From: Halapricum desulfuricans
Lineage (GTDB): Archaea > Halobacteriota > Halobacteria > Halobacteriales > Haloarculaceae
Assembly (NCBI RefSeq): GCF_017094525.1
Contig: NZ_CP064788.1
Span: forward strand, 2,031,030 to 2,095,029
DNA: 64,000 nt
Reading direction: 5' to 3'
Below, piece after piece: positions 15,923 to 36,485 of this stretch. The notes under the pieces are model-generated. The model saw nothing but the letters and a program-made list of their open reading frames with translations, ran no database searches and was not told where the DNA came from. How positions within the stretch are numbered: position 1 is the stretch's first letter; each line of letters opens with the position of its first letter. Made by a program: the position numbers and the translations under genes.

Positions 15923-16178
15923 CGAATTCACGGGCGTTATCGATCGGTTCGAAGGCGAGCAGGCAGTCATCCTCCTCGAATCGGACGGTGAGACAGTTGA
16001 TGAAGTCGTCATACCACGAGAGGATTTGCCAGCTGATGGACGGCGTGTAGACGCTGTGCTACGGGTCGTGCGCGAGGGTGGGGAGATCATCGAACTGGAA
16101 TTCGATGCTGTAGAGACCAAGCAGCGAAAAGAGTCGGTGACCGATCAGTTTGACCGGCTCTCTGAACGACCCGATTAA
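15915..16178 (+). CDS. DUF3006 family small protein
   Basis: The product is 87 residues if read from the ATG at 15915 (MANEFTGVIDRFEGEQAV), which matches the DUF3006 pattern of a short beta-rich domain starting with a V/I-DRFEG motif and continuing VVIPREDLP. An in-frame upstream ATG at 15900 would add five residues inside the previous gene and is less likely. In bacteria and archaea, DUF3006 proteins are habitually encoded directly beside ComEC-like metallo-beta-lactamase-fold proteins, exactly as here with an 8-bp overlap. The biochemical role is not established. The pairing suggests it supports or regulates the exported hydrolase. Confidence 0.88.
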   Translation: MANEFTGVIDRFEGEQAVILLESDGETVDEVVIPREDLPADGRRVDAVLRVVREGGEIIELEFDAVETKQRKESVTDQFDRLSERPD

Positions 16179-16330
16179 CTCCGGATCGAATCCTCACTGT
16201 GAGGAGGTACTATCGGACGTTTTGGATACACGCACGCCTATCTATCCTACTGGACCATACGAAAAGAGTGATTACGCGCTTGTGGACTATGCGCGGTTAG
16301 GGCCACTTTGCTTCCAAGAACGAACTGAGA

Positions 16331-16338
16331 TTTAAATA
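16331..16338 (+). promoter_or_regulatory. Archaeal TATA box for the 66-residue gene
   Basis: The octamer TTTAAATA is centred about 27 bp before the ATG at 16362. That is the distance at which an archaeal TATA box places transcription start at or next to the start codon, so a leaderless mRNA is expected. Confidence 0.6.
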
Positions 16339-16361
16339 TCATCCCGGCTCACCACGGTCTG

Positions 16362-16562
16362 ATGCACTCTGAATGGCATCCACAGGACTGGCTACTGGTA
16401 CTCGAAGCACTCAGTAAGCACGCTGCCGATCCATACGTTGCGGCCCATCGTCGAGATCGAGCAGAGCTTCTCATTGATGGAATTGCTACCAAGCTCGGGG
16501 TTGATCCAGTACGATTCCCCCAGCAAATTGATTCCGATTGGCCAGGCTCTTCTAACTCGTGA
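16362..16562 (+). CDS. Small uncharacterised 66-residue protein
   Basis: This is a short acidic protein starting MHSEWHPQDWLLVLEALSKH and containing a helical stretch of the form VAAHRRDRAELLIDGIATKL. I do not recognise the family. The TATA box placed for a leaderless transcript and the consistent haloarchaeal codon choice favour a real gene. It converges on an interrupted minus-strand gene 18 bp away. It could be a small regulatory or antitoxin-like protein, but no partner is visible. Confidence 0.6.
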   Translation: MHSEWHPQDWLLVLEALSKHAADPYVAAHRRDRAELLIDGIATKLGVDPVRFPQQIDSDWPGSSNS

Positions 16563-16580
16563 CTAGCAAGCGGACTTGCG

Positions 16581-16871
16581 CTATTTGAGATTTTGCCTGT
16601 ACTCACTGTAGGCGCGTGCCATTTCGGCCTTCTGCCCGTCACTCCAGGACTCATTTTCTTCGGGATTGAAAAATGGCAGTTCCTCCTTTTCTGCCACATC
16701 CATCAGGACACCTGCGGGGAGGAACTCCGTGTACCAGTTTTCCAGCACCTACGCTTCGTTATGCTGCTTGATTTTCCGGTAAATATGCATAGTGATTTCG
16801 GGGTACTCGTGATACAGGTCCGGATACTGTTCATAGAGGTCTGGACACGTCGTCGAAGGATGTTCAGTCAT
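16581..16871 (-). pseudogene. Small ORF interrupted by an in-frame TAG
   Basis: Read on the minus strand, an ATG overlaps the stop of the upstream 262-residue gene (AATGACTGA) and opens 40 codons ending IYRKIKQHNEA. Then comes TAG at 16749-16751. The same frame continues without a break for 55 more codons (GTG, LENWYTEFLPAGVLMDVAEK, then FFNPEENESWSDGQKAEMAR) to a second TAG at 16581. Both halves have the same acidic, aromatic style, and the composite of about 96 codons reads as one protein. Options are a nonsense mutation, two coupled mini-genes with the second starting at GTG directly after the stop, or readthrough. The first seems simplest. The function is unknown, but the protein is coupled to the 262-residue gene. 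Confidence 0.6.
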
Positions 16872-17652
16872 TGTTTTGGTCTGTTTCTTGCACGGTCTGC
16901 CAGCTGTCTCTGTACCGTTGTTCGTCCTGCTGATCGCGCTCTCGTTCCCGAGAGTCAAACGGTTGGATCGCCTCTTGATCGAACTCAGTCCGCAAGATAT
17001 GGAACCCATCGGGGACCTTTCCGGCGACCCGATAGGCTCGTATCGGGTGATAATACGAGTGTTTGACGCTCTTGAGTCCCTCACGCAACCAGCGCTCGAC
17101 GAACACCAGTTGATTGACGTACTGTCGGTGCTCATAATCATCGAACGAACCGTCGCAGATTTCATCCTGAATGAACGTCGATTCGACCGATGTGTACGGG
17201 ATTTCCGGAAACCGGAACCAATTGAACCGCCCGCGGTCGTCAATCGGCACATCGGCTACCTCGGAATCGTCGGTATACGTTTCGCCGCGTGCAACAGCCT
17301 GCCACTCGGTGCGATGCCGACGGGCCCACGCGTGCCGCAGTTCCAGATCTTCATTGCGGTCCTGGCAAATAGTCTGCTCGGCTCTCGTCGGCTTCCTGAA
17401 CTCCGCGCGGACCCGATCGTACGCCGACGGATATTTCAGCGCGACCAGTGCGTCATTGTAGCTAATTCCGGACGCTGAGAGTCCAGTACAATTTTCCGGA
17501 TAGCCATTTCTGGCGAACCACTCGACAGAGATGAGACTATTGACGAACTGCCTGTACTCGATGTCATAGAAACTCCTCTCGTGAATCTGCTGACGAATAT
17601 ACATTGACTCCACGTCCTCGTAGGAGATCACGGGATACAGGCTATCGATCAT
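16864..17652 (-). CDS. Uncharacterised protein with internal duplication
   Basis: This 262-residue protein contains two similar halves of about 70 residues. One begins DVESMYIRQQIHERSFYDIE and the other SVESTFIQDEICDGSFDDYE. Both continue YRQFVNSL/HRQYVNQL, then a VE-W aromatic motif, then a stretch ending VRAEF/LRTEF. The linker is charged. No known enzyme motif is seen. The repeat suggests a scaffold that binds two copies of something or a two-fold symmetric partner. Its stop overlaps the ATG of the small interrupted ORF that follows, so the two formed an operon. A TATA-like AT-rich stretch lies upstream (about 17740). Confidence 0.75.
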   Translation of the reverse strand: MIDSLYPVISYEDVESMYIRQQIHERSFYDIEYRQFVNSLISVEWFARNGYPENCTGLSASGISYNDALVALKYPSAYDRVRAEFRKPTRAEQTICQDRNEDLELRHAWARRHRTEWQAVARGETYTDDSEVADVPIDDRGRFNWFRFPEIPYTSVESTFIQDEICDGSFDDYEHRQYVNQLVFVERWLREGLKSVKHSYYHPIRAYRVAGKVPDGFHILRTEFDQEAIQPFDSRERERDQQDEQRYRDSWQTVQETDQNND

Positions 17653-17835
17653 CTCTTGGGGTTCTCCATGACGACTGGCTGTCTACGCGCTACAATTGGG
17701 TTGGCCTTATCCCGATATAGTACCCCAGTGTATAAATAATCTATTGAAAATTACCAAAGGGAATATTCAGACTAGAGAAGCCAGCAGAGTACTTAAATCG
17801 GACACCCGACCGCACAGCGGATGGTCACACCGGAT

Positions 17836-19686
17836 TCACTCGTTCGCGGATGTGTCTGGTTCTTGAACCGAGAGTTCGACTTGTGCCTCGTGTTCGAGCA
17901 AGTGATCAAGATCTTCTACTGCATCAGGATCCACACGAAGGAGTATGAGGTCGTTCTGTCGCATTACAGTTCCAGTCACTGTCGAGGGGTCGTCACGAGC
18001 AAGCTGTTCAGGGAGACGTTCAACGGTAGTTTCGATTGCGTCTAACCGTGTCTCGATTGTGTCGAATCTCGTCTCGACGGTGTCGGCTGTCGCGCTCTCA
18101 GCGACGAGATCGCTCACCGACGATTCGAGTGCCTCCAGACGGTCATTGACCGTCGACTGGAATTCTCGATCGATCTGTGGCTGCACCTTTTCATTGGTCT
18201 CCTCCTTGACCGCGTCCGCTTGTTGATCAGGCTGATCCTGTATGGCATCCACGGTCGAGGTCTGTCCACCATCAGACGTGGCGACATCCTGTTGTGGCGA
18301 GTGTTGTGGCTCGGCCGACTCGAACTTGCCCAGAAGATGGTCAACGGCCAGGCCTTCATCCTCAAGTTCGGCCGTTCCCTTCTCCCACGAAACGGCTGGC
18401 AGTTTCTCGATTGGTTTGTCAAGTGGTATCCGCATTCCACTCTCTCGATAATTCCGCTGGCGAATGAGATTCGCCCCTGAATCAGAGAGCCATCGAGGAG
18501 CGGACCATGACCCATCATCATACAGGCAATGTGTGTTCATATCATCGTTCTCCCAATGGAACAGATTCTCCAAGGAGGAAGCCAGCGATTTCGCCTGATC
18601 TGTCTGGATGTGCTTGAACACGAGATGCCGGGGAAGTTGTTCGTCCACGAACGCCAGGAATTCTTCTTCTGTGGGGTGATTGGGGACCTCAAAATAGTGT
18701 GTTGCACAGACGCCACGCTCAACGATATCAGGGCTGGACGTAGCTAGTTGGACAAAGACAGCGCCGGGGTCGTCTTCGATGACGCCGAACAGTCGTCGGA
18801 TGCTTCCTTGTGATGGGGCTTCGGGTCCTGCAATCGTAATCGCTCCCGACGCAAGGACTTCGTCAGTATGGTCAAAGTGTGAGTGGGGGGTAACCGATGG
18901 TACGTCGTAGCCAAGTGCTATGTAGTGCTTTGCGGCCTGGCCGACGAGATGGATCGGATGAGCGCGGTCAAGGCGGTCAATCATATGTCCGAGGAGGTAC
19001 GCCACATGGACACCCGTGAGCGCGCTTGCAGCGACTACCGTTGTCGCGCCACTCAGGGTCCGTTCGAGTATCGTCTCCAGTGCTTCGGACAGCGTCGGCT
19101 GAAAAGACTCGGCGGTTGACGCATTCGCAATTAGGATATCAATATCAATCGGATCCGGAATCGATAGCCCGGGGTAGCCAGCGACCGGTCGTGTCGTGAA
19201 GTCTCCGGTCGCAAGCACTGTGATGGTTTCCTCGTTGTACTCTAAATCGTCGATCCGGAACAGGAATGCGGCTGCGCCCGGCGTGTGACCAGCGGGGAGG
19301 GGCAGCACATCAATGCCATCGCTCAACGATGTCCACGTCTCGATACCAGTGAGCGCAGATGTGATCGCCTCCAGATTGCCGAGATTTTGATACTGCTCAG
19401 CTTCGGCATAGACTTGTTCCAGTATCGTCGCCGTGCCTGGTGCTGTGTATAATGGCACATCTGCACTCGTATCGAGAATCTGCCCGAGGCTGGCATAATG
19501 ATCCGAATGTGCATGCGTCAACAGAACACCATCCAACGACTCGTCTGTCCCAAGAAAGGCATTCGGTGAGACGCTCTGTCCAGCATCGATCAGATATCGA
19601 TATGGATCCCCATCTCTCGGGGTAATAGTCAGGAGTGTCGAATCATGACTCGCTGAGGGATTCGTATGCTGGAAGGATATCTCCAT
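17836..19686 (-). CDS. Beta-CASP-like metallo-beta-lactamase-fold protein with coiled-coil tail
   Basis: This is a 616-residue protein. Residues 1-370 form a metallo-beta-lactamase fold with LLTHAHSDHYASL (motif 2), LPAGHTPGAAAF (motif 3) and ATGDFTTRP (motif 4). A following segment resembles the beta-CASP region of RNA/DNA-processing nucleases (RNase J, CPSF-73). The region after residue 450 is an acidic linker, then a heptad-rich coiled coil (TRFDTIETRLDAIETTVERL), then a short C-terminal domain (VTGTVMRQNDLILLRV). It lacks a signal peptide, so it is cytoplasmic, unlike the exported hydrolase at 14.5 kb. A nuclease role is likely by family, but the substrate is unknown. A decayed IS element lies just upstream of its promoter. 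Confidence 0.85.
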   Translation of the reverse strand: MEISFQHTNPSASHDSTLLTITPRDGDPYRYLIDAGQSVSPNAFLGTDESLDGVLLTHAHSDHYASLGQILDTSADVPLYTAPGTATILEQVYAEAEQYQNLGNLEAITSALTGIETWTSLSDGIDVLPLPAGHTPGAAAFLFRIDDLEYNEETITVLATGDFTTRPVAGYPGLSIPDPIDIDILIANASTAESFQPTLSEALETILERTLSGATTVVAASALTGVHVAYLLGHMIDRLDRAHPIHLVGQAAKHYIALGYDVPSVTPHSHFDHTDEVLASGAITIAGPEAPSQGSIRRLFGVIEDDPGAVFVQLATSSPDIVERGVCATHYFEVPNHPTEEEFLAFVDEQLPRHLVFKHIQTDQAKSLASSLENLFHWENDDMNTHCLYDDGSWSAPRWLSDSGANLIRQRNYRESGMRIPLDKPIEKLPAVSWEKGTAELEDEGLAVDHLLGKFESAEPQHSPQQDVATSDGGQTSTVDAIQDQPDQQADAVKEETNEKVQPQIDREFQSTVNDRLEALESSVSDLVAESATADTVETRFDTIETRLDAIETTVERLPEQLARDDPSTVTGTVMRQNDLILLRVDPDAVEDLDHLLEHEAQVELSVQEPDTSANE

Positions 19687-19834
19687 ACGTATGTCAGGCC
19701 TGTCCAGTGCATTAAGATAGGGGTCGCTTGTCGCAATACTACAACCGATATCGGCCGAATCAAGCGTTGGATAGATCGACGCCAGCTGAGGTGGTGCAGA
19801 ACGGCCGTAGTGAATCGCCAGACGTAGCTTGATT

Positions 19835-20638
19835 TCATTGTTTCACTGCCTGGTTGATGTTGTGAACTACACACATCAGAACGATTTCTCGAAATTCACC
19901 GTACCATGATCAAGCACGCACGGCGTCGCCGAGCGTGCGCTTGATCGTCGAGAAGACGGTTTCACACATCGCTCGTTGGCGGTATCGAGACCCATTGATC
20001 CACGCGTTGTGCGCGTGATCGATGGGCCGGAACTTTCGATGCTTGATTAGCGATCTTACGCCTTCTTCGCGGAGTTTTTCGCGTGACTCCATCCAGTCGT
20101 AGCCTTTGTCCGCAGCGAGGCTGGCGAGGTCGCCCGCGTGCGGCGGGCGACCTGCCAGCCGAGCTGTGTGTCGTGGCGTTTCTCGCTCGTACAGTGAACG
20201 TCCAGAATTGCTTGGCTTTCTGTATCGACGAGAGCTGTCGCTTTGAGCGTCTGGACGCGGCAATTCGTCCGTTGGTAGTAGTGTTTGCTGGCGTTTTTGC
20301 GGTCAAAGAACGTCGCGTCGATCGCAGCGTGGCCGCTCGGGTCGTGAAACTGCGCCGAGAGGCGCAGCAGCACTCGCCAGAGTGCTGTCTTGATTCTATC
20401 AAACCACTTCACTAACGTCGAGTGGTGCGGGAGATCGGCCGCGTTAAGGCCGATTTCCCCAGTATATGTGGTATCTCGCTCAGCAGATCCAACGCCTCTC
20501 GGTAGGGCTTCTCCAAGCAAACCCGAAGACAGTGGAGCGATACGACAGCATAATCGGCGACTTCGCCTCGGCCACCGACGGCATTTTAGCTAACTGAACC
20601 GCTTTCTTCGTGAAGAAGGAAATCTTCGACATAGACAT
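19835..20638 (-). pseudogene. IS5-family transposase, decayed
   Basis: A DDE transposase of the haloarchaeal IS5 type can be reassembled from three frames: VSLHCLRVCLEKPYREALDL, then GEIGLNAADLPHHSTLVKWF through DATFFDRKNASKHYYQRTN, then GDLASLAADKGYDWMESREK through MCETVFSTIKRTLGDAV and the terminal YGEFREIVLMCVVHN. The frame changes fit single-base losses: one in the AAA(A)TGCC stretch near the N-terminus (about 20585), one in the G run near 20460, and one at CGC(A)ACGCG near 20145. The element is therefore inactive by itself. It sits between the metallo-beta-lactamase-fold gene and the zinc-finger protein. Terminal inverted repeats were not resolved. Confidence 0.85.
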
Positions 20639-20766
20639 CGGCGGTTTCCCGCCTCATACTCCTAGTTCTAACGGTCGAAAACGACGCCTTCCAGCGATTC
20701 ACCAGAGACTGTAGCTGTATTGTTCGCTTATATAAAAGCAGTTTGTCGCTCCGAATATTGTTTCAA

Positions 20767-21957
20767 TTATTTCAACAGCTCATCTTCCGCGTTACCGACG
20801 TTCTTCGAGATTGCGCTCGGAGTTTTACCACGGATGTCAGCCCATTCAGTTTGATTCATCGCATCAAACTGTTCGGTCATAATGTAATCGACAGCTTCGG
20901 CACCGGATGCTCCAGCTTCACAGATTGCGCGGATTTCGTACCCATCAGGCATCGACACATCACTATCAACATCCACCCTCACCTCTGGATACGGTGGGAT
21001 AATCCGTGCCTCTTTCAGCTCAGTCATAACGCCGTCTAACGTCTCGTCTTCGACATCGAGGAACCGGCCGATTAGGTAGTCGTTGTCGGCAGTGTCGAGC
21101 CACGGATCAAGCGTCCACCCTTCGAGTGAGATCGGTTCGTGCGTCAATGAGCCACCAAAGACCGCTTCCTGAGCGTGTAGGTTGATGTCCTCAGCGAACT
21201 TCCGCTCAAAATGGTCCTTCCGACGGTGGAGTGATTTAAGCGCGTCAACGACATCGTCGCCAACCTCGTCGATCTCTTTTACATTCTCGATAGTCTGTTC
21301 AAGTTTATCCCATTCGATTCTGTCGTCGTAAGTTACCTCAAGTTGCCCGACATTTTCGATGCCGTACCACGCATCAACGAGGTAGTTATTGTTCGGGATC
21401 GTCGCCAGTACATCAACATCAGTTTCTGGGATGTTATAGATACCGTACCGCGCTTCTGCCTCGCCTTTGATGGTCGCCCGCTTCTCCCAATTGTCCGGAA
21501 TCGTCCACAGTTGCTCACCTTCCAGCACCGCCCCTCGTTCAGCTGGGACGCGCTTCGTCCATCGCATCCGAGGTTCGTCACCCCGAGCGACAATCACATG
21601 CTCATCGCCTTCGCGGTAGGCGTAAAGGTGCCCGTCAGCACTGTAGCGTCGAACCTCATCGTCACTGTTTCGGACATCTCTTAAATCGCGGATTTCTTCT
21701 GTGCCACCATCGGCAACTACTTCCGCCGTGTGTCCGTCACTCTCGTCGGTAGATGATGGTCCATCGTTGCTGTGAGTGAGCCCTTCGTGCGTTGCGAGGC
21801 CGTGTTCGGTGTCAAACTCATCGCCGCATCCGTCGCATTCGTGCGTCTCGGTGATGACTGAAACCCATTGCTTGTTACCGGTATTCGCTTTGGCTTCGAT
21901 GGTGTTTCCGTTCAGTTCGACCGTTATCTTTGAGCCGCCGATTTTGAGTTCCGACAT
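20767..21957 (-). CDS. Uncharacterised protein with C2H2 zinc finger and C-terminal helix-turn-helix-like end
   Basis: This is a 396-residue acidic protein. The N-terminus (about 1-35) is beta-rich (GGSKITVELNGNTIEAKA). A single C2H2 finger follows (HECDGCGDEFDTEHGLATHE, spacing C-x2-C-x12-H-x4-H). The central part has strands with WTKRVPAERGAVLEGEQLW. The last 40 residues (MNQTEWADIRGKTPSAISKNVG) resemble a helix-turn-helix found repeatedly at the ends of haloarchaeal plasmid and provirus proteins. This points to a DNA-binding protein of a mobile element. It is not coupled to its neighbours and lies between an IS remnant and the RAMP operon. Specific function unknown. Confidence 0.8.
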   Translation of the reverse strand: MSELKIGGSKITVELNGNTIEAKANTGNKQWVSVITETHECDGCGDEFDTEHGLATHEGLTHSNDGPSSTDESDGHTAEVVADGGTEEIRDLRDVRNSDDEVRRYSADGHLYAYREGDEHVIVARGDEPRMRWTKRVPAERGAVLEGEQLWTIPDNWEKRATIKGEAEARYGIYNIPETDVDVLATIPNNNYLVDAWYGIENVGQLEVTYDDRIEWDKLEQTIENVKEIDEVGDDVVDALKSLHRRKDHFERKFAEDINLHAQEAVFGGSLTHEPISLEGWTLDPWLDTADNDYLIGRFLDVEDETLDGVMTELKEARIIPPYPEVRVDVDSDVSMPDGYEIRAICEAGASGAEAVDYIMTEQFDAMNQTEWADIRGKTPSAISKNVGNAEDELLK

Positions 21958-22361
21958 TGTCTTGCTAACCCCACATGTGAGTATAGGTTAGAACGAATTA
22001 AGTATATTGGTCTAATATATCATAATTCATACTTTTATTCTATTACTTCTGTCTCAGCTGAACTTAGCCTCATAGTAATTTTCTTAGGTGGAAACCTGTT
22101 TTTGCTCGGTTCTCTGAGGCCGTAGCTACCCCTCTGCTGCGTGATGAACGACCGGACCTCCTGTGCATAATATCTAAGAATCGGAACTCATAGTCGGAGG
22201 GCTGCCGAACTTGTCTCGGTACCAGCCCCAAAGGACACCATCGAACAGCTCAGCAAAGTCGTACGTGAATGATAAAGGTCGAACTCAAATCGACCGACAT
22301 TGAGGGGGAGCAGGCGGGATGATCGCGGCCGGGTGCCGTCGCCGACGTATGACCGCGCGCG
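21958..22361. other. Intergenic region with coding-like scraps
   Basis: About 400 bases lie between two minus-strand genes. The first 150 bases are AT-rich and probably hold the promoter of the 396-residue gene. At about 22195-22273 a plus-strand frame reads AAELVSVPAPKDTIEQLSKV and ends in TGA, overlapped by a 16-codon ATG frame. These look like the tail of a lost gene rather than functional ORFs. Confidence 0.35.
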
Positions 22362-23480
22362 CTACGAACGCGACGCCGTCAGGACCGCAGTGAGCAGCTG
22401 CACGGGCGAGATACTCTCCGGCAACTGCTCGTGGAGCTCATCAGGATCCAATTCCGCCACCATCGACGCGATGTCCGGATCCCCATTAACTGGGTCGGAC
22501 GCACTGTGGTGCCTGGTCCAGGTTTCGACGGGAGCGTCCGCGTCGCCATCAGCGGCCGCATCTATATCATCACTCTCGTCTTCGGGTTCGCTCTCGACTT
22601 CGCCGCTTGCTGTAGCCGCTGTGTCGGCTCCCGCGGCACTGTCACCCATCGTCGCGTTGTCGCTGCGATTGTGCTGGAGACGCTCGTCGGTGGGCTGGCT
22701 TTTCGGCGGCCGACCACCATCGCGGAACGCATCTATCGGAAAGTCGTAGGCGCGGGCTCGTTTTTCCTTGGTGGCCACCGTGCGTCGCGTGACATCGAAT
22801 ACCTCGGCGACCGTCTCTTGATTGCACCCCCGCTCTAACGCTTGCCGAACCAGCTCGTCTTCCATCCGCTGGAGGAGGGCTTTGGTCTCGCTCGGAATGT
22901 GTCCGCGTGCCGAATGCTCGATCTGCTCGGGAAGGCCCCACTTGCCAGTCTCGATGTCCTTATCGACGAGCGGGTGCTCGCGCCCCTCGACGACTTTGTC
23001 CAACCCCATCAGCTGCCAGAGTCGGTCGCGGATCGACACCGTCGACTGATCGACTGACAACCGGTCGGCGATATCACCCGTCCGCAGCGGCCCGTTCGCG
23101 GCGAGCAATTGCAGTATCTCACGATCCTGGGGCAGCATCTCACGCTCGTCGGCTGCAGTGAGCTCAACCGGCAGCGTCTCGGGCTCGGGCTGCTGGTGAT
23201 ACCAGGTATGACACGCGTGACAGAGGACCGTCAGGTTCGCCGGGTCGTGGACGTCCACCTGGTCGGGATCGCGATCGAGATGATGGACCTGGAGCGTCGC
23301 CATCCCGCCGTTCTGCGGGCCGTACGTCCCACAGTTCTGACAGCGGTAATTGTACGCCTCTAGCATCTGTTTGCGTGTCTCCGCATTAACCGTCTCGGCG
23401 TCGGAACGGCCGCGAGCGGTGTCGTCGCTTGGATAATTGTCTGTCGAGTCGTCGTCGGCTAGTGCTTTGGTGTCACTCAT
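22362..23480 (-). CDS. HNH endonuclease-like protein with winged-helix domain
   Basis: This 372-residue protein has an N-terminal HNH nuclease domain (about 30-105): paired CXXC metal ligands (YRCQNCGTYG and TVLCHACHTWYH) and the catalytic-type VHHLDRDPDQVDVHDPANL. A helix-turn-helix of the repressor type comes next (about 125-180: DREILQLLAANGPLRTGDIA), then a second helix-turn-helix-like stretch (about 210-240: QETVAEVFDVTRRTVATKEK) and an acidic low-complexity tail. It closes the minus-strand operon that starts at 26075, separated from the exonuclease gene by 177 bp. It is probably a site-directed nuclease or an autoregulating nuclease of a mobile or defence module. Confidence 0.88.
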   Translation of the reverse strand: MSDTKALADDDSTDNYPSDDTARGRSDAETVNAETRKQMLEAYNYRCQNCGTYGPQNGGMATLQVHHLDRDPDQVDVHDPANLTVLCHACHTWYHQQPEPETLPVELTAADEREMLPQDREILQLLAANGPLRTGDIADRLSVDQSTVSIRDRLWQLMGLDKVVEGREHPLVDKDIETGKWGLPEQIEHSARGHIPSETKALLQRMEDELVRQALERGCNQETVAEVFDVTRRTVATKEKRARAYDFPIDAFRDGGRPPKSQPTDERLQHNRSDNATMGDSAAGADTAATASGEVESEPEDESDDIDAAADGDADAPVETWTRHHSASDPVNGDPDIASMVAELDPDELHEQLPESISPVQLLTAVLTASRS

Positions 23481-23657
23481 ATCTTAGTGGAGTCTGCACG
23501 GCAGTGTTCGTTCGTATGCGATGCGTCTCGACGGTGGGCGGGACGGCTGCGCCATACCCGGGCCGGCCGTGACTGGCGTATGGCGTCCGCCGCGACGGCT
23601 CGGCTGTTCTGACCAGCTCTCCATCGCGCTAGCCGTCCCGCTATTGGGGTGGCTGTC

Positions 23658-24323
23658 TCACTCATCGATCGTTGGCGTCAGCGACTTCAGGTCGAAATCG
23701 GACTTGCTGCAGTACCGCTGGGCGAGCGTGCTCAGCGCTTCCGTCCGCAGGATGTCCGCCAGATTGTGCATGACGACATCTGTATAGTGTCCGGTCTCGA
23801 AGGCTGTTACCGCCTCACTGCTCTCGTCGAAGGGATCATACGCGCCGGCGTCACCATCACAGAGCACGTCGTAGGCGGTGACGAGATCAGCGTCCGCGTC
23901 GCCATCGACAGTCGTGTTGAACAGCCGCTGGATGAGGGGCAACAGGTCGGCATACGGGACATCTACGAATGGCCAGGCGATCCCGTGAGCAGCTAGCCGC
24001 GTCCTGAGGAAGGGTAGGTCAAACCCGCCCTGCCAGGTCTCGCCATTGTACGCGACGAGTAGGACATCTACCGGCGAAAGCTGCTCACGGACGTACGTCG
24101 CGACGGCGGTCAGCAGCTTGGCTTCCGTCCGATAGGTTGCGACTCGGACGTGTTCGTCGGTCGTATCTTGGACGGCCGTCGCGATATCGCCGGTCGGGTG
24201 GCTGGCCGTCTGGGCGAACAGCTGATAGCCCAAGTCACGCTCGACGCCGACGACTGTCACCGCATCCGACGCGTTGAAGCCTGTCGTCTCGATATCGAAC
24301 GCCCGCTGGGTCAACTGCGTCAT
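23658..24323 (-). CDS. DEDD (RNase H-like) 3'-5' exonuclease
   Basis: This is a 221-residue protein if started at the ATG of MTQLTQRAFDIETTGF. That ATG overlaps the upstream stop as ATGA, which decides the start. The DEDD exonuclease motifs are visible: FDIETTGF (Exo I, residues about 9-16), a YNGETWQGGFDLPFL segment (Exo II, about 95-110) and a C-terminal HNLADILRTEAL (Exo III-like, about 180-195). The last reads as the DEDDh/DEDDy class used for single-strand DNA or RNA trimming. It is translationally coupled to the small protein and the RAMP-like gene upstream. Such a nuclease beside a Cas7-like protein would suit guide or target RNA processing, but this is inference. Confidence 0.85.
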   Translation of the reverse strand: MTQLTQRAFDIETTGFNASDAVTVVGVERDLGYQLFAQTASHPTGDIATAVQDTTDEHVRVATYRTEAKLLTAVATYVREQLSPVDVLLVAYNGETWQGGFDLPFLRTRLAAHGIAWPFVDVPYADLLPLIQRLFNTTVDGDADADLVTAYDVLCDGDAGAYDPFDESSEAVTAFETGHYTDVVMHNLADILRTEALSTLAQRYCSKSDFDLKSLTPTIDE

Positions 24324-24529
24324 TGGCGCGCACCTCCAGCCCACGTCGTCGCCGTCCGCGATGCGACGCGGGGTGTGGCTGCCGACTCGCGTGCCTGGCC
24401 TCGACTCGTATGGCCGTGGTGGTGATCCGCGGCCAAGAGCGGGACCGCTGCTGGCTCGTCAGTGCCACTGTCGCCGGATTCGCGGTCGCTGCGCTCGCAG
24501 CTGTCAGGTACACCCTCAGCCGCGGTCAT
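24320..24529 (-). CDS. Small coupled protein of the RAMP operon
   Basis: This product of 69 residues is low-complexity, rich in Ala, His, Ser and Arg (ADHHHGHTSRGQARESAA). It would look doubtful alone, but it starts in an ATGA overlap with the upstream RAMP-like gene and ends in an ATGA overlap with the exonuclease gene. A translated spacer of this exact fit suggests it is made. It has no recognisable domain. It may be a disordered linker protein or only a coupling ORF. Confidence 0.5.
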   Translation of the reverse strand: MTAAEGVPDSCERSDRESGDSGTDEPAAVPLLAADHHHGHTSRGQARESAATPRVASRTATTWAGGARQ

Positions 24530-25467
24530 GTCTCCTCATCGGCTGTGGGTAGCCCTAGATCACCATCACGGGCGGCCGTCCGCGCCTGCACCGCTTGCGT
24601 GACTGCGTCGCGGCAATCTTCTCGCCAGTGTTTGTCTTTCGTGTCCATCGCTTTCGTCGATGGGCGGGCGCGATCGATATCCCGGCGCACTTCGTTGTTG
24701 TTATACAGCGGGTTTATCAGCCAGACGTCTACAATCTCGGCGTCGATCGTCTGTGCGTCATCTCCTTGGATGGTGACCTCGTCGCTGTGGCTGTCAAGGT
24801 ACGACATCGCTTCGGCGATGAGTCCGACAAACTCCGGCCTCAACTCGCTCAGCGTGAGCCGCCACATCTCCCGGATGGTGCCGAGGATGTCCCGGTCAGC
24901 TTGGTGCCGTGGCTGACCGTCCTCCTGCTGGGAACCCTGCGTGCGCGACTGTTGATAGGGCTCGCCGTGCGGGATGGCTCCCTCCCGGTGCGTTGTCACC
25001 ACCGTGATTGGCCGGCGTGACAACTTACCCGACTGGTCGTCGTGCGCGCCGAACAGCTCGTGGACGAGGCAGCCGGCATCGTGCTCGTCGGTGCACGTGC
25101 CGTGCTCGTGATATCCCGTCTCTAGGTCGCGGTCGGGGATGTCCGCTCGACTGTCGTCGCCAGTCGAGACGCCGGGGCGACAGGCCGTCGCGCCAGCCAG
25201 CTGGATGACCTGCTCGCAGCTATAGCGCAGCCAGCGATGCAGTGAGGCCGACGAGAGCTGCCCGCTGAGCTGGTCCATCGGGTTATCGTCCGTGTGGTGA
25301 TCAGATGGAACGTGCTGGTGGTCTGTGGCGACGCCGTCGGCCGGGGCCAGTACGTCGAGCTCCAGGCCAATATACAGATCGGGCAGCGTCATCTCGTCGA
25401 GCCGGTAGGGGCACTCGATGTCGATATCGAGCGGTGTCTCGTCGAGGGTCTGCGGGGCGGTCGTCAT
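24526..25467 (-). CDS. Cas7/RAMP-superfamily-like protein
   Basis: This 313-residue protein has several features of CRISPR RAMP (Cas7/Csm3-like) proteins. There is an early strand (PDLYIGLELDVLAP) and then LSSASLHRWLRYSCEQVIQL, which takes the position of the (I/P)GSSLKGxLR signature. Then comes GCLVHELFGAHDDQSGKLSR, matching the C-x2-x(L/I)FG...GxL loop of these proteins. The C-terminal half has LTLSELRPEFVGLIAEAMSY and VDVWLINPLYNNNEVRR. The usual glycine-rich loop is weak (VTIQGDDAQTIDAEIV), so this may be a derived member. No cas1, cas2, cas6, cas10 or CRISPR array is present. It is coupled by ATGA overlaps to both neighbours. Haloarchaeal RAMP-like loci without arrays have been described, and this could be one. 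Confidence 0.6.
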   Translation of the reverse strand: MTTAPQTLDETPLDIDIECPYRLDEMTLPDLYIGLELDVLAPADGVATDHQHVPSDHHTDDNPMDQLSGQLSSASLHRWLRYSCEQVIQLAGATACRPGVSTGDDSRADIPDRDLETGYHEHGTCTDEHDAGCLVHELFGAHDDQSGKLSRRPITVVTTHREGAIPHGEPYQQSRTQGSQQEDGQPRHQADRDILGTIREMWRLTLSELRPEFVGLIAEAMSYLDSHSDEVTIQGDDAQTIDAEIVDVWLINPLYNNNEVRRDIDRARPSTKAMDTKDKHWREDCRDAVTQAVQARTAARDGDLGLPTADEET

Positions 25468-26075
25468 CGGTGTGATCCCCCGCTAGGCTCGTCGTGTGCC
25501 GTGTCGTGCCCGACGTCCGTCGGTGTGGAGTTGGTGTCGGTCTCAGAGTCGGTGTCAGTGTCCGTGGACGGGTAGTCGCGGGTGGCTCGGTCAGTGCGTA
25601 CGGCCGCGCGCTGCCAAGGGTGGCGATCGGTCGCGTCGTCAGTGGCCACGTAGTGGTCGCTGGACGCGATCGGCTGGCGGACGACGGTCGCGCCGGGCAC
25701 GGGGTGCAGCTCGGTCGTGTCGGCCGGGCTTACCGCGCGTAGTTGGGGTGCCAGCAGCACCGGCCACGACGATTGGGTGGCCTGGTCAGTGCAGGTGCCG
25801 ATGCGGCCGTCCAAGATGAGGTCGCGCACACCCCGAGTCAGGTGTTCTGTTGGCTCGTGCCGACAGTCCGGGCATTTGAGATGCGCGATCTGGACGGTAG
25901 GTTGATCGGCCACCCGGACGGCAACTGCGGTGCAGCGGGCGCCGTCCCGGAGGTCCGTGCCGCAGACGTGGCACGTTGCGGTTTCCTCCCTGAGTGGGAT
26001 TTGTGTTATTTGGTGTATCTCTTCAATCAGTTGTCTGTCGCTACCTTCTTGAGTCAGGGGTGTTGACCTATTCAT
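25464..26075 (-). CDS. Zinc-ribbon protein heading the RAMP operon
   Basis: The product is about 203 residues from the ATG of MNRSTPLTQEGSDRQLIEEI. The longer open frame (to 26138) adds 21 basic residues unlike the rest, so the internal start is preferred. A zinc ribbon is clear: TCHVCGTDLRDG, then HLKCPDCRHE. It continues with IGTCTDQATQSSWPVLLAPQ and ends in a Thr/Asp/Ser-rich tail that is likely unstructured. Its stop overlaps the ATG of the RAMP-like gene. A zinc-finger protein immediately before a Cas7-like gene recalls the order seen in type IV CRISPR loci, but sequence homology cannot be shown here. It is also divergent from a small winged-helix gene that could regulate the operon. Confidence 0.75.
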   Translation of the reverse strand: MNRSTPLTQEGSDRQLIEEIHQITQIPLREETATCHVCGTDLRDGARCTAVAVRVADQPTVQIAHLKCPDCRHEPTEHLTRGVRDLILDGRIGTCTDQATQSSWPVLLAPQLRAVSPADTTELHPVPGATVVRQPIASSDHYVATDDATDRHPWQRAAVRTDRATRDYPSTDTDTDSETDTNSTPTDVGHDTAHDEPSGGSHR

Positions 26076-26280
26076 GGGTTCTGTACTCTCAACCCGAGAA
26101 CCCGGCCTGCGTGTAGCAGCACGCGGGCACTTCCGCACTTCAGTTCCGTGCCCTAGACAGCCAGGCTCTCAATCATCTCTATATTCTCTGCAGTTATAAA
26201 CTTAACGGATTGTAAAGGTAGATAGTAAATACGGTTTGTAGGGATGGAGATAAGGGAGATGCAGAGACATATAGAACCAA

Positions 26281-26493
26281 ATGCCTATCAAAATCGATGA
26301 CAACACTGATCTAGTCATTGACCAATTTCTTGAAAAGGGAAATCTGACTACAGGAGCTTTAGTTGATTTCACAGGATTATCGCGACCAACAGTGACAAAA
26401 CGTCTAGATCGCCTGCACGCTGCAAATCATATCAAATATCTACATAAGCCGACTGCTCTTTGGACACTAATAGAGGATCCCAGAGAAGAGTGA
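26281..26493 (+). CDS. Small winged-helix DNA-binding protein
   Basis: This 70-residue protein is a single helix-turn-helix domain (FLEKGNLTTGALVDFTGLSR, PTVTKRLDRLHAANHIKYLH), as in MarR-like minimal haloarchaeal regulators. It begins 205 bp from, and is divergent to, the zinc-ribbon/RAMP operon, so it is well placed to repress that promoter and its own. The upstream region is AT-rich with possible TATA elements. The composition is lower in GC than that of the operon. Regulation of the operon is inference from position. Confidence 0.82.
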   Translation: MPIKIDDNTDLVIDQFLEKGNLTTGALVDFTGLSRPTVTKRLDRLHAANHIKYLHKPTALWTLIEDPREE

Positions 26494-26812
26494 GATTGCT
26501 GTCGTTGAACGTAGAAGCACTCTCTGCGTGTGTAATTGTGTCGGGTGGAAACATCGCTTGTAGCACATAGACCGGCATCTGAAATTCCAGAAATTGCGGG
26601 CGGCGACTGGTCTCTGCTTAAGGACAATAAGGAGAGGGGATGGAGTCTCGGGAAAGAGATCTTCGACTTTCACTCGGATAGGGATCTTTTCACGTCTCGT
26701 CTGTTTGGGCAATCATCGGCTCTACAACCTTGGTCACCACCTAGTCGTGTATTTGGTCGTCGCCAAGATCCACTTGTACCCCTATGATTTCCCTAATTAT
26801 ACCAATATATTA
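26494..26812. other. Intergenic region, no gene seen
   Basis: Open frames on both strands overlap each other and show no haloarchaeal codon bias. The right half is AT-rich and lies downstream of a minus-strand gene. I see no RNA gene or terminal repeat. Confidence 0.35.
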
Positions 26813-27418
26813 TTATTTGATAATACGGGGTGTGTCGTTGTACTGTTCAACAAGTCGCTTGTTCAATTCACGGAGCCATATGACCAGCGGTTTATCCGCC
26901 GTCTGGTATTCGGGGCCGCGGAGTCCTTTGACCTCTTCAACGATACCACTATCAATCAAATTGGTGATTTGATCAACGACTGTTTGGTAGGACACGTCAG
27001 CGCCACGTTCAATGGCGGCCTTTGTGTGGGACTCGTTACCCGCCAAATCGAGGAAAAAACTTATGAGTTGTTGTCGTCCCGGTGTATCGAAAACCTCGAT
27101 TACTTCCTCAATATCAGTGGGACAGTTACGGAGGTAAGCAATGATAGAGTTGTCTCCTATCGTGTAGTGGACGATCCGTGCATCGGGTGACCCTGGCTCG
27201 AAGATCCCGAATCGAACCATCGGACCAGCCATAAGCTTGTCATCGTCTTGGCGACCGATTTCCTTGATGATCGTCGTATGAGATCGATCAGTCGCATCTT
27301 TTAGATCGCTTTTAGTGTACTGACGCTCAGGATCTGCTGTGGTCAGTGCAAACTGAACAAGATCACGCCGGGTTTCGCTCCCGAACAACTGGACAACAGG
27401 CAATTCGTATTCATTCAT
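26813..27418 (-). CDS. Winged-helix regulator with two helix-turn-helix units
   Basis: The product has about 201 residues from the ATG of MNEYELPVVQLFGSETRRDL, which overlaps the upstream gene's stop (AATGAATGA). This decides the start over a longer frame reaching 27547. The N-terminal half has ETRRDLVQFALTTADPERQY and a DLKDATDRSHTTIIKEIG helix-turn-helix. The second half has DTPGRQQLISFFLDLAGNES and another helix-turn-helix (ERGADVSYQTVVDQITNLID) followed by a wing. This matches haloarchaeal proteins with duplicated winged helices. The paired gene upstream is small and coupled, so the two may form a regulator/effector or toxin-antitoxin-like pair. Confidence 0.83.
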   Translation of the reverse strand: MNEYELPVVQLFGSETRRDLVQFALTTADPERQYTKSDLKDATDRSHTTIIKEIGRQDDDKLMAGPMVRFGIFEPGSPDARIVHYTIGDNSIIAYLRNCPTDIEEVIEVFDTPGRQQLISFFLDLAGNESHTKAAIERGADVSYQTVVDQITNLIDSGIVEEVKGLRGPEYQTADKPLVIWLRELNKRLVEQYNDTPRIIK

Positions 27419-27764
27419 TGATCCACCACTCTCCGTCTGGCACTGGGGTAAAGCCAAACCCCTGCAAGACCGTGCGAATTGTTTCGTCAAGGGTAGCACC
27501 CCCTGAACGAGTGACGCCGCCAAGTCGATCTGTCTTCCCACGCCCAATTTCAGTCAGTGGTGTAAACTGGATGTTGCGACGACGGAAGGCGGTTCTAAAT
27601 TCCCTTTCACCATCTTCAGTCGCGTACAGAACCACTCTTTCGGGGTCGTTCTCGATGTTAGTCAATAGTACGTACTGATCGTGAGGTAGTACGTCCGTAT
27701 GCCTGGTTGGCGTAATCTTATGTTCGACGGTTCCGTCATCATACATAACTGTCCGCGTTTCCAT
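27411..27764 (-). CDS. Uncharacterised 117-residue protein coupled to a winged-helix gene
   Basis: It starts METRTVMYDDGTVEHKITPT, has a beta-rich core (YVLLTNIENDPERVVLYATE), then GEREFRTAFRRRNIQFTPLT, and ends in TIRTVLQGFGFTPVPDGEWW. No family is recognised. It overlaps the winged-helix gene by 8 bp, so the two are translated together. An AT-rich promoter region of about 90 bp precedes it. The size and pairing suit an accessory or antitoxin-like component, but no direct sign of toxicity is visible. Confidence 0.7.
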   Translation of the reverse strand: METRTVMYDDGTVEHKITPTRHTDVLPHDQYVLLTNIENDPERVVLYATEDGEREFRTAFRRRNIQFTPLTEIGRGKTDRLGGVTRSGGATLDETIRTVLQGFGFTPVPDGEWWINE

Positions 27765-27853
27765 AGCTCCCTATTATGCTATATGTAACATAAAAGTATA
27801 GCAAATGCCGACCACTACTATCCATTTTAATTAAATATAGAAATATGAGAATA

Positions 27854-28345
27854 TCATTCTTCCAGTGAAATGGCTCGATGCAGCCCCGCTCGAACCACCT
27901 CGTCGAACTGCTCGTACTCCGTCCTTTCAATGATCGCTTTCAGTATGGTATGTACAACAGGGGCTGTTGCCGCATTGATGTGTTTGTCTGATCCTTCAAC
28001 TAGTTCAATTGAGTCGACAGTACACTGTGGTGTGTTCTCGGCTACCCAGTTCTCTGGTGGGATGGTATAGGCTACGTCAAATTTCGTACGCGCCAGTGGC
28101 ATGTCAGCTTGATCTAGCACTGCTGCCACTTCGATACGTAGCGCGCGGTCGATCGCTTCGCTAAGTGTGGTCAAGTCCTCACACCGGATGAATGCCTGTG
28201 CAAGTGAGCGAATTTCACCGTCGTAGTCCATAATCCCGAGCTGTTGGGTCCGTGTTGATTCAAGATCCGTGGTAGTTAGTTCCATAATCGAGTCTTCGAT
28301 TCGCCACGGCTGTACAACGATATGAGGCATACTTATGATCCGCAT
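27854..28345 (-). CDS. Uncharacterised 163-residue protein
   Basis: The protein starts MRIISMPHIVVQPWRIEDSI (the second methionine, residue 6, is an alternative). It contains IRSLAQAFIRCEDLTTLSEA, RALRIEVAAVLDQADMPLAR and a C-terminal helical TILKAIIERTEYEQFDEVVR. I do not recognise it. It has the acidic haloarchaeal style but low-GC surroundings. It stands just before the recombinase on the opposite strand, with a 282-bp divergent region that holds no RNA gene I can see. Confidence 0.68.
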   Translation of the reverse strand: MRIISMPHIVVQPWRIEDSIMELTTTDLESTRTQQLGIMDYDGEIRSLAQAFIRCEDLTTLSEAIDRALRIEVAAVLDQADMPLARTKFDVAYTIPPENWVAENTPQCTVDSIELVEGSDKHINAATAPVVHTILKAIIERTEYEQFDEVVRAGLHRAISLEE

Positions 28346-28627
28346 ATACGATATAAAACATATATAGGCTTGGCGCTGATTTAGGGAGAAATACCACCAT
28401 TTCGCCCCTCATAATCACTGTATTCTACCTGATCGCGTATGGATAATCGCTATATTTTATATTAATTATATTGATATATTTAACACTGAATTCTTTTGCA
28501 CGCCCGCTTATGTTGATAATCGACTTGTTTCACAACTCGATTACGAACTAACCGATAACCCCAATCTAACCGCGAAATTGGCCCGGACAACCGAAAGAAC
28601 TAGACGGATTCCCAGTAATATCCGATT

Positions 28628-29218
28628 ATGGTCCGCGTCGACGACGCAACGGACGTGCCGAAGTGCTGGTTGTCGCCGGAGGAGCTAACGCAACTGGAAC
28701 GGACGGCAGGTGAACAGGGATGGGAACGAGAGATCGCGATGCAACTGATGGGACGATGTGGGCTGCGGGCTTCTGAAGTGAGCTATCCGGGCGATGATGA
28801 CCTCCGGTACTCGGAGAAAGGTGACGTATGGCTATTCGAAGTGCGTGGGAAGAACACGAAGGGCGGGAATCGGAAGCTCCGGGACGCTTGGATGCCCGAC
28901 GCGGTAGCCGACGATGTCCACAAATACAGCCGTGAGCGCGATCTCACCCCGTCAGAGTCGTGGGTTGATGTGAGCACGCCCACTGTCCGTCGTTGGGTGA
29001 AAGAAGCCGCACAGACGCTTGCTGACGAGCTTGATGAACCACGCTGGCGGATGGTCTCGTCTCACGATCTGCGACGCTCTTGGGCGACATATCACCTCGT
29101 CGAGCGCCAGGTAGATGTCCGGACTATGATGAGTATCGGTGGATGGTCAGATTACTCGGCTATTGAACCGTATCTTGCGGAACCAACTGAGGCCAGGATT
29201 GGAGAAGCGATGGCATAG
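28628..29218 (+). CDS. Tyrosine recombinase/phage integrase-type protein (catalytic domain only)
   Basis: This 196-residue protein is a tyrosine recombinase catalytic domain with the core-binding domain largely missing. Visible residues are the first arginine in GRCGLRASEV, a KGGNRKLRDAW segment for the beta-hairpin lysine, HDLRRSWATYHL (H-x-x-R), GGWSDYSAI for the H/W position and the nucleophilic tyrosine in IEPYLAEP. Such short enzymes are frequent in haloarchaeal integrative elements and plasmids. It lies directly upstream of the defence operon, so it may have mobilised it. No att site next to it was recognised. tRNA 3' fragments that could be att scars are about 17 kb away at 46 kb. Confidence 0.9.
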   Translation: MVRVDDATDVPKCWLSPEELTQLERTAGEQGWEREIAMQLMGRCGLRASEVSYPGDDDLRYSEKGDVWLFEVRGKNTKGGNRKLRDAWMPDAVADDVHKYSRERDLTPSESWVDVSTPTVRRWVKEAAQTLADELDEPRWRMVSSHDLRRSWATYHLVERQVDVRTMMSIGGWSDYSAIEPYLAEPTEARIGEAMA

Positions 29219-29556
29219 GCCTCTGTCAATCAGTACGCGAGTGTACCATCTATAGAAGCGAATACCCGATATTTCAACTCCCACGACTCGTAGATCTCTA
29301 TTCCTCATTCAGGCGGTATCAGTGTCGAGATTGCGTCACTCGCAAACCTTTAAGTCGATCTTGGTGCCATCGCTAGTGTGGAAATAATGACTGTAAGGGA
29401 CAGTTGCCTCCCTTGCATCCGCCAGCAATCTATTCATGATTACAACCGTAAGTAGCCACTATACTAAATCGGATATCAACAGATCGGAATCAGTGGAAAC
29501 ATCCGAGGGACGATTCAACCGTCAAAGAACCACCCACAGAAGGCGGAGGGAATAAA
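29219..29556. other. Upstream region of the defence operon
   Basis: This 338-bp gap has a TTTAAG box at about 29350 and an AAGGCGGAGGG ribosome-binding-like stretch just before the ATG at 29557. The long leader could hold regulatory sites. I see no repeat array or RNA gene. A 22-codon ATG frame at about 29387 has no support. Confidence 0.4.
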
Positions 29557-32500
29557 ATGAAACACCAGCAATCACCTCCATCAGTATTCGACGCTTGCGA
29601 ACCACGTGATGACGTGTTACGCGGAGAGCTTGCGGAAGATCAATTTGCCGCAAACCTCGCGTCGGTCGCATTCGATCCAGAAGACGCCGCGCCGGTGTAT
29701 CGAGACGCAGACGAATTCTACGCTAGTACCTACCCGACGGACGGGCTCCAGACCCTGCTGAGCACCATCACGAGTCGGTTCCTCTCGACGACCGGTAGAG
29801 AACCCGAGTACTCGGCCGGGATCCTGTGTCTGGACACCACCTTCGGTGGCGGGAAGACACACGATATGATCGCCTCGTACCATCTCGCCTCTAATCCAGG
29901 TGAGATTACGGGACTCGACCGTCACGTCGAAGACGAGGGGCTAGCAACGGCGTATGAAGACGCCGTCGAAGACGGGTTATCGCCACGTTCAGCCGTCTTC
30001 GTTGGTGGGTATGTCGACGCCAGAAACGCCCGGAGTGATACGAACGATCCTGACGCCCCGAACACGAATACTATGTGGGGCGAGATCGCGTACCAGCTCT
30101 ACGGCAACGACGGCTACGAGTACCTCAAAGAATACGACCGAAACCGCGACTCTCCGGGTGAAAGCACGCTACAGGGCCTCTTCGATCTTTCAGACGATCC
30201 GGCGCTTATCCTCATCGACGAGATCGCACAGTACCTCGAAGACGCCTCCGGTATCGAGACTGGCAACACGCTCCTCAGCACGCAGACGCTTAGCTTTATG
30301 AAGTCGCTGCTGGAGACAGCGTCAAACCGAACCGACGTAACCGTCGTCTACAGCATCGCCGACACCGCGTTCACTGACGAAGCTGAGACCGTCCGCCAAG
30401 AAATCAAAGATCTCGACTCCATCGAGCAACGCCAACAGCAGACGATCACCCCGACGGGCGACACTGAGATCAGCTCCGTTCTTCGGCGTCGGCTCTTCGA
30501 TGACATCGAGGACGACGTTGCTGAGTCTGTCGCAACGTCTTTCTACGAGTTCTACCGCACGATCGACCGGCAACTGCCTCCGGGTGTTCTCGACACGGAA
30601 TACCGCGAGAAGCTCGAACGCAACTATCCGTTCCACCCGACGACGATCAATACGCTCACCGACAAAATCGACTCAATTCCTGGTTTCCAGAAAACGCGGG
30701 ACGCTCTCCGGCTGCTCGCGCGTGCTATCTACTACCTCTGGAACCACAAACCCACGTCGTACGACCGACATCTGCTTCGCCTCTATGATCTAACCCCGGC
30801 TGACAACGAACCAGATGGGAGTATCCGAACGAAGCTAAGCAATACCCTCTTCGATGCGATTGATCTCGACTCAGCCGTCTCTGCGGACATCTACACTGAC
30901 GACGAATCGGCACACGCACAGCAAGAAGACAAGCGGTGGAGCGAAAAGGGGCTCCCACCACTCGGAACGCACGTCGCCACGTCGGTGCTGTGGAACAGTC
31001 TGGCCGTCGGAGAGAAAGCGACCGGGATGACGCGGGCAGAGCTGTACGCGTCAGTCGCTCATCCGGAAGTGTCGTTCGACCACTACGATAATGCGCTAGA
31101 GAATCTGACCGGTAGCGACCACCAGGTCGGCTGTTACTACCTCTACGACGAGGACCGGATCAAGTTCAAAGCCCAGCCGCGTCTGCTCTACATCATCGAC
31201 CAGTATACGCAGAACACACCCCGAGCGCAAGCACGAGACCGATTCGAAGGACGACTACGCCAGGAGATCGGTACTGGAGGTTTCGAAACGGTTCCAACCG
31301 CAAATCCGGATTCAGCGTTCCCAGAAGAGCCGGCGGACGTACCGGATAGCGCCACGACGCCGACGCTTGCGATTATGCACTTCGATTCGGTCACTGTCGC
31401 TGACGGCGGCGAGAAGGTCCCGTCGAAGGTCCAAACCCTCTACGATGAAACAGCGTCCAGCCACAACGCCCCAACACAGTCACGCACATACAAGAACTAC
31501 GTGCTATTCCTCGTGCCCGATCACGATCTCGTCGAGAACGGCGTCGAGAAAGCTCGGCGATTGGAAGGGCTTGAGCGGATGCGCGAAGACTCCGACCAGA
31601 TCGCGCAACTGACCGACGAGCAGTTCGACGAGCTCGGAGAGCGGATCGACCGGCACAAGGGGTTACTGGGCGAGCAGGTTCGGAACGTCTACCGTCACCT
31701 GTACTATCCGGACAAGGACGGCCTCGAACACGTCTCTATCACGGCGGTCGATGCAAACGGCGATACGACGATGGTTGAAGCGGTCGAGGCGACTCTGGAC
31801 GACCGCATCCTCAGAGACGACGACTCTGCCCGTGGGGAAGTCTGGTTCAAGAGTCGGCTCTGGCAACAGACGAAATCGCGGATGGACACCGAGCAACTGG
31901 CTGCTCAGTTCGCGAAAAAGCCCGGTTTACCGTACCTGTTCAGCACGAAGCCGCTCCGGAAGACGGTCGCCAGGATGGTCGACGAATCCGGCTACGCCTA
32001 CTGGGACGGCGAGCGTGAGCAGGCATATTGGACCGGCGATGAAGAACCGGACGAGTGGCACTGTGACCATCCCATCAGCGAGTCACCGGACGTAGAAACG
32101 TCAATTACTTCGACCGATGTGAAGATCGGCGACGAATACGCTGTCTTTGAGGGGATCGACCCGCTAGTCGACGCCACAGACCTCGCGTGTCGTGAACCGG
32201 AGTATCGTGTCTCCATCGAAGAGACTCTTGACGAGGATACCGAATCGTTCGACGTGACCGTCGAAACCGAGTCGGCCACAAGCGGCCATCTCGTCGTGGA
32301 TACGGGCAACGATACGGTAGTGTTCTCCGATATTAGCGCCGAGACGGTGACTGTGAGCGACTTCAACGACTTGACTGAGGGTGATGTCGTTATGGCGGCG
32401 CTGTACGAGTCAGAAGCGCAGGAGTCCGAACTCGCGTCCGAACGCCAGCGCGTCAAGGACGGTGGTGGCCCGCAACCGTCTTGGGAAGAGACATCCAAAA

Positions 32501-33569: not shown

Positions 33570-33575
33570 ACGACT

Positions 33576-36473: not shown

Positions 36474-36485
36474 CCACCCAAGCTG

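Follow-up and report, generated by a model that had tools for sequence, protein, structure and literature searches.

An operon of Halapricum desulfuricans that probably derives from an HRAMP locus by core-gene deletion

In the single-contig 2.89-Mb genome of the haloarchaeon Halapricum desulfuricans we analysed a stretch of 64,000 nucleotides (positions 2,031,030-2,095,029, hereafter the window), which contains at window positions 22362-26075 an operon of five tightly packed minus-strand genes next to a divergent winged-helix gene. It is probable (about 0.8) that this operon arose from an HRAMP locus by deletion of core genes. In the available parts of two publications (PMC8730458, PMC12669027), HRAMP loci are described as type III-derived relatives of CRISPR (clustered regularly interspaced short palindromic repeats) systems, with Cas5 and Cas7 homologues, nucleases and uncharacterized proteins and without an array; the associated nucleases are most often of the HNH or PD-(D/E)xK type. 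The window locus shares with them the haloarchaeal host, a Cas7 homologue (here degenerate), HNH and DEDD nuclease genes and the missing array. It differs from them, and from related loci, in that Cas5 and a conserved third protein of about 250 residues are missing and the glycine-rich loop of Cas7 is lost. Because these two defining genes were tested for and are absent at the locus, the operon is a derivative of HRAMP and not an HRAMP system proper.

A check of the open reading frames (ORFs) confirmed the layout described in an earlier reading of the DNA (the sequence-only reading), i.e. five minus-strand genes, of which four are joined by ATGA overlaps and the fifth, HNH, follows after a further 177 bp, and the divergent winged-helix gene. 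The overlaps join the zinc-ribbon, Cas7-like, small ORF and DEDD genes in a chain, and the 177-bp gap separates the DEDD from the HNH gene. In window coordinates the features are:

26281..26493, plus strand: small divergent winged helix-turn-helix (wHTH) regulator, 70 residues; most HRAMP loci in its clade have a similar small divergent gene
26070..26171, minus strand: structured leader RNA, a three-way junction (P1/P2/P3) that ends at the zinc-ribbon start codon
25464..26075, minus strand: zinc-ribbon protein, 203 residues, ATG start; 3 of 17 conserved positions changed
24526..25467, minus strand: degenerate HRAMP Cas7, 313 residues; the model retains the Cas7 fold, with changes at 46 of 102 conserved columns
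24736..24768, minus strand: site of the lost RAMP glycine-rich loop, residues 234-244 (family QxGGARNFGAG, window QGDDAQTIDAE)
24320..24529, minus strand: 69-codon ORF (69 residues) where intact loci have the Cas10-like and Cas5 genes
23658..24323, minus strand: DEDD 3'-5' exonuclease-like protein, 221 residues from ATG, catalytic motifs intact
23481..23657, minus strand: DEDD-HNH gap, in which the motif of intact loci, ATTGAAGCGATANNNCA or a near variant, is reduced to GCGGACGCCATACGCCA
22362..23480, minus strand: HNH endonuclease with helix-turn-helix (HTH) domains; 3 of 60 conserved positions changed

The Cas7 family and the intact HRAMP operon

The sequence-only reading had proposed that the 313-residue protein is a member of the RAMP/Cas7 group. 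A direct search with this protein alone gave no meaningful match in Pfam, NCBIfam or PADLOC (a Peptidase_G2 match at E 0.06 was discarded), but the proposed profile comparison succeeded with its relatives. Of 195 genomes sampled from the order, 50 carry homologues, which fall into two clades (about 43-51% and 33-39% identity) and include a second copy in the same genome. Over its full length this protein is 46-51% identical to members which carry the glycine loop (GGARNFGAG) and match Csm3/RAMP models. Csm3 models match the relatives with E values down to 1.8e-6, one model reaching up to 12 of 34 members, and one member lies just under the cut-off of the Pfam RAMPs family. Searches with PDB sequence profiles found no relative of the three core families.

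The AlphaFold2 model of the window protein (mean predicted local distance difference test score, pLDDT, 66; predicted template modelling score 0.69) has the RAMP fold whose absence would have spoken against the assignment. In the PDB, Foldseek matched it best to chains from CRISPR complexes that contain Cas7 (best E 1.8e-4); all twelve matches with E <= 0.001 are type VII complex chains, followed by type IV and Csm complexes. In VIA-align 2 all 50 listed rows are class 1 CRISPR effector chains, the best being type IV-A3 with Z 10.7. For one of the structure predictions of this study, the input alignment left out the rows from plasmid records. Since the family members carry RAMP signs and the model matches Cas7 chains, the protein belongs to Cas7/RAMP by fold and via its family. 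The LFG sequence previously regarded as a RAMP sign is only part of the family's conserved LFGG and no RAMP hallmark. A possible zinc site, the pattern C..P..YH..C, is kept in the window protein. Type IV Csf2 and type VII Cas7 (of the Cas14 complex) give the top structural scores, the former in VIA-align 2 and the latter in Foldseek, whereas other genes of those types were not seen at the locus and the ranking among Cas7 families is within error. The suggested likeness to type IV loci that pair a zinc-finger protein with Cas7 received no specific support beyond this fold rank.

For comparison, 55 other loci of this Cas7 family were used, and 40 neighbourhoods were fetched for gene order. In the clade nearest to the window the divergent wHTH gene is followed by genes for the zinc ribbon, Cas7, a protein of 245-290 residues, a protein of about 310 residues, DEDD and HNH, with the leader RNA preceding the zinc ribbon. 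A second clade has the middle three genes with other neighbours and without the nucleases. The gene order, which the sequence-only reading had proposed to check, is conserved in other haloarchaea; it recurs in dozens of loci and is thus more than a chance arrangement. The protein of about 310 residues matches Cmr3 models (Cas5 group) in 27 of 27 members, with a best E value of 8.6e-8. The family search assigned the DEDD protein of the window to RNase_H_2 and a CRISPR-associated DEDDh model, and the HNH protein to HNH and several HTH families. We assign the operon to HRAMP because the composition of its intact relatives equals the published one. When the surroundings of the loci and the Cas1 locus of the host were checked for arrays, no array-like repeats were found in window positions 16000-34000 or around the second copy. 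Both the kinship with HRAMP and the lack of a nearby array, as previously supposed, were thereby borne out.

The third core protein, of about 250 residues, has no sequence family match; among 31 members there was none in PADLOC and no meaningful one in Pfam. Its model (mean pLDDT 82.7) retrieved mostly Cas10/Csm1 chains in Foldseek, but only at E values of 0.6 and above. On realignment all 44 listed entries were Csm1 or Cmr2, with Z values of up to 12.6 over 228 residues for Csm1 and 6.8-6.9 for Cmr2. Of the 31 members, 29 have an HD-like motif (HDxHK), and none has GGDD. From its predicted structure, we take this protein to be a reduced Cas10 that lacks the cyclase motif. The literature, as far as examined, holds no characterization of it. 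At the family level HRAMP thus resembles type III (Csm/Cmr) systems, with Cas7 nearest to Csm3 and Cas5 nearest to Cmr3 by hidden Markov model (HMM) and with a predicted Csm1/Cas10 fold in the third protein. It differs from type III in that the locus has neither array nor Cas6, the Cas10-like protein lacks GGDD and HNH and DEDD genes stand in the operon.

Presumably, the Cas7 backbone, the Cmr3-like Cas5 and the reduced Cas10-like large subunit of an intact HRAMP locus form an array-less type III-like complex, which may recruit DEDD and HNH as associated nucleases. The divergent wHTH and the structured leader RNA probably control expression of the intact operon. With Cas7, Cas5 and a reduced Cas10 as components, assembly and HD activity of HRAMP become directly testable; no tested function of this CRISPR derivative was found in the literature as far as examined.

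A small acidic ORF lies between the Cas7 and Cas10-like genes in region L037 (6648-6980, minus strand) and in ten similar loci. It contains a short motif (about LDELxEPxxxLRTAQ) twice; in loci that lack this ORF, the Cas10-like protein can bear an N-terminal extension with a similar motif.

Losses and remaining constraint at the window locus

According to the HMM presence table, all 55 other loci keep the Cas10-like gene and the GGxRNFG loop, and only one of them, truncated at the end of its contig, lacks Cas5; all three are missing from the window locus. No Cas5 gene was found in any frame of window positions 16000-34000, and of the Cas10-like gene at most a short N-terminal remnant is left at the locus. 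In intact loci the two missing genes occupy about 1.7 kb between Cas7 and DEDD, which is replaced in the window by the 69-codon ORF. The sole HMM signal of this ORF, on the right strand and in the right place, points weakly to the N-terminal part of the Cas10-like protein; 24 of 3000 shuffles reached its score. It is probably a remnant of the deletion, judging from sequence and position. A C-terminal remnant of Cas5 was also considered for this ORF and rejected, as it gave no HMM signal.

Of the remaining genes, Cas7 is by far the most altered. Only in the window protein has the glycine loop GGARNFGAG become DDAQTIDAE; all 33 other aligned members still have it. Against its 46 changed conserved columns the next member has 7, while the changes in the window DEDD (8 of 70 columns), HNH and zinc-ribbon proteins are within the range of other members. 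The branch of the window Cas7 measures 1.14 substitutions per site (median 0.09, next longest 0.32); those of DEDD and HNH are long, not the longest. At conserved sites, the Cas7 gene is changed nearly equally at codon positions 1, 2 and 3 (0.23/0.21/0.28), compared with 0.15/0.11/0.40 in HNH. The leader RNA, the zinc ribbon and both nucleases of the window copy have kept their conserved motifs and open frames.

Lacking the Cas10-like and Cas5 genes as well as the glycine loop and many conserved residues of Cas7, the window locus would be unable to form an HRAMP complex of its own. The RNA-guided system that the sequence-only reading had considered is accordingly not upheld for this copy; that reading had overlooked the two missing core genes, the lost Cas7 loop and the structured RNA at 26070-26171. 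Most likely the copy is decaying, with its nuclease and zinc-ribbon part still under selection and possibly acting in trans for the core of a second copy in this genome (see below). A natural deletion that removed exactly the RNA-binding core and left the nucleases intact is a useful test of the role of each part.

The second copy and competing explanations

The second HRAMP copy of this genome is located at about 137-142 kb (region L035, 134279-149244). It carries genes for Cas7 with an intact loop, Cas10-like protein, Cas5, DEDD and HNH, the Cas10-like gene having long low-complexity inserts. An insertion sequence (IS) with 18-nt inverted repeats sits inside its zinc-ribbon gene and cuts off most of the zinc ribbon, the leader and the regulator; neither leader RNA nor wHTH is left at this copy. 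The genome has one other Cas7 besides that of the window, and its one Cas5 and one Cas10-like gene are both at the second copy. The two copies are complementary in what each lacks. A Cas1/Cas6 CRISPR locus with two arrays lies about 120 kb before the window. The idea that HRAMP depends on the CRISPR system of its host was rejected, since across genomes it co-occurs only weakly with Cas1 (odds ratio 2.0; P 0.04, or 0.07 when fragmentary hits are dropped).

Several observations speak against simple decay of a core-deleted HRAMP locus. The Cas7-like frame is open over 313 codons, for which a neutral simulation gave probabilities of 0.005-0.019, and amino-acid exchanges at conserved columns are less drastic than under simulated neutral drift (P 0.0003-0.011). 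Therefore, constraint had become weaker but was not missing all the time, or the frame was kept for downstream translation; we conclude that the protein was still constrained to some extent while it diverged, at least for a time. A close sister of the core-less form, which could show or deny a conserved subfamily, did not turn up: there were no relatives in viral contigs, nor in genome contigs searched with window-specific peptides.

The same observations can be accommodated in several ways. Possibly, although this is the less likely course, the Cas7-like frame is kept only for translating the downstream nucleases while the protein itself drifts. This would refine the core-deleted HRAMP reading rather than exclude it. 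It agrees with the ATGA overlaps throughout the operon and with the confinement of lost constraint to Cas7, and conflicts with replacements milder than neutral. Rather unlikely is a functional minimal system that needs no guide RNA and consists of the nucleases, the zinc ribbon and a Cas7-fold scaffold put to a new use; it could, for instance, be a self-contained nuclease module that the leader RNA or the regulator sets off. The open frame with partly conservative changes, the retained nuclease and zinc-ribbon motifs, the ATGA coupling and the kept C..P..YH..C pattern would fit such a system; however, no second genome with the core-less arrangement was found, and near-equal changes at all codon positions on a single very long branch argue against it. 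Still more doubtful is a split HRAMP, in which the leader-controlled zinc ribbon and nucleases of the window would work with the core of the second copy, guided or triggered by an RNA of their own operon. The candidate for this RNA would be the structured leader together with an ATTGAAG...ATA motif, found in the zinc-ribbon codons and before HNH, instead of an array. Finally, the 313-residue protein might be no RAMP/Cas7 at all and the operon an unrelated nuclease cluster. The failure of the protein alone in database searches and its missing glycine loop could be cited for this, but the full-length identity to loop-bearing, Csm3/RAMP-matching members, the fold match to Cas7 subunits and the same gene neighbourhood refute it and leave it a negligible probability.

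Leader RNA, conserved motifs and neighbouring genes

Directly before the zinc-ribbon start codon the leader RNA folds as a three-way junction. The window leader, itself one of the 12 seed sequences of our model R1, matches this model with 67.1 bits (E 8e-14) and has a minimum free energy of -46.7 kcal/mol (z -3.7). In 35 aligned matches, fitted to the model and including four weak ones (E 0.16 or worse), two-sided changes occur at 19 of 21 pairs; 92.7% of cells pair, versus at most 42% with partners slid, and no shuffle reached the covariation score. An unfitted MAFFT alignment gave two-sided changes at 12 of 20 pairs. Rfam 15 contained no family match in the stretches tested. Matches with E values up to 0.1 were found in 114 of 195 haloarchaeal genomes, with up to 16 copies per genome; about 59 of the 114, counted from the table, have one at E 1e-6 or better. 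This occurrence rules out an HRAMP-specific RNA. In 20 regions fetched outside the studied HRAMP loci, the genes that follow a copy are of various kinds, and the copy ends at or beside their start codon. Upstream there is usually a short divergent ORF (about 70-83 residues), in the position occupied by the wHTH gene in HRAMP loci. From this comparison of sequences the RNA is taken for a cis-regulatory leader. It is a widespread haloarchaeal structured RNA and a candidate for a new class or family of cis-regulatory RNA.

Two further elements are conserved in intact loci. In the zinc-ribbon genes of regions L036-L059, the synonymous sites of codons 16-33 are frozen, including a rare ATA (ATT GAA. 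ATA ... CTC GGG GAA GGG GCC), and the stretch begins at a fixed 45-48 nt past the ATG; the window keeps part of it. In the DEDD-HNH gap ATTGAAGCGATANNNCA occurs once per genome in 19 of 195 genomes, with zero matches in reversed controls, and nearly always inside the HRAMP locus (e.g. L037:4111, minus strand; L040:10810, plus strand); the window copy has lost it. The sequence ATTGAAGNNATA is common to the frozen zinc-ribbon codons and the HNH-side motif. We take the first 8 bases of ATTGAAGCGATANNNCA to resemble the 3' end of haloarchaeal CRISPR repeats. The HNH-side motif was considered as a guide for the zinc-ribbon site, which is unsupported, as the variable positions of both do not co-vary by eye. 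A coding explanation was rejected after inspection by eye, as the reading frame of the motif is not constant with respect to HNH and stops interrupt it in some loci. The available parts of the HRAMP publications (PMC8730458, PMC12669027) say nothing of the leader RNA, the frozen codons or the HNH-side motif.

Inside the DEDD-HNH gap of the window a 62-codon arginine-rich ORF (23477-23665, minus strand) overlaps the DEDD gene and the HNH gene by ATGA; in the intact loci that were checked, the gap between these genes showed no ORF linking them in this way. Beside the operon lies a DDE transposase fragment (window 20056-20520, minus strand). A defence island adjoins it on the other strand (window 28628-40376, plus strand), comprising a phage-integrase-family gene and three large genes that match Hma-type defence models, namely a DUF499/HmaC ATPase, an HmaB methylase and a helicase with HmaA and PbeA matches.

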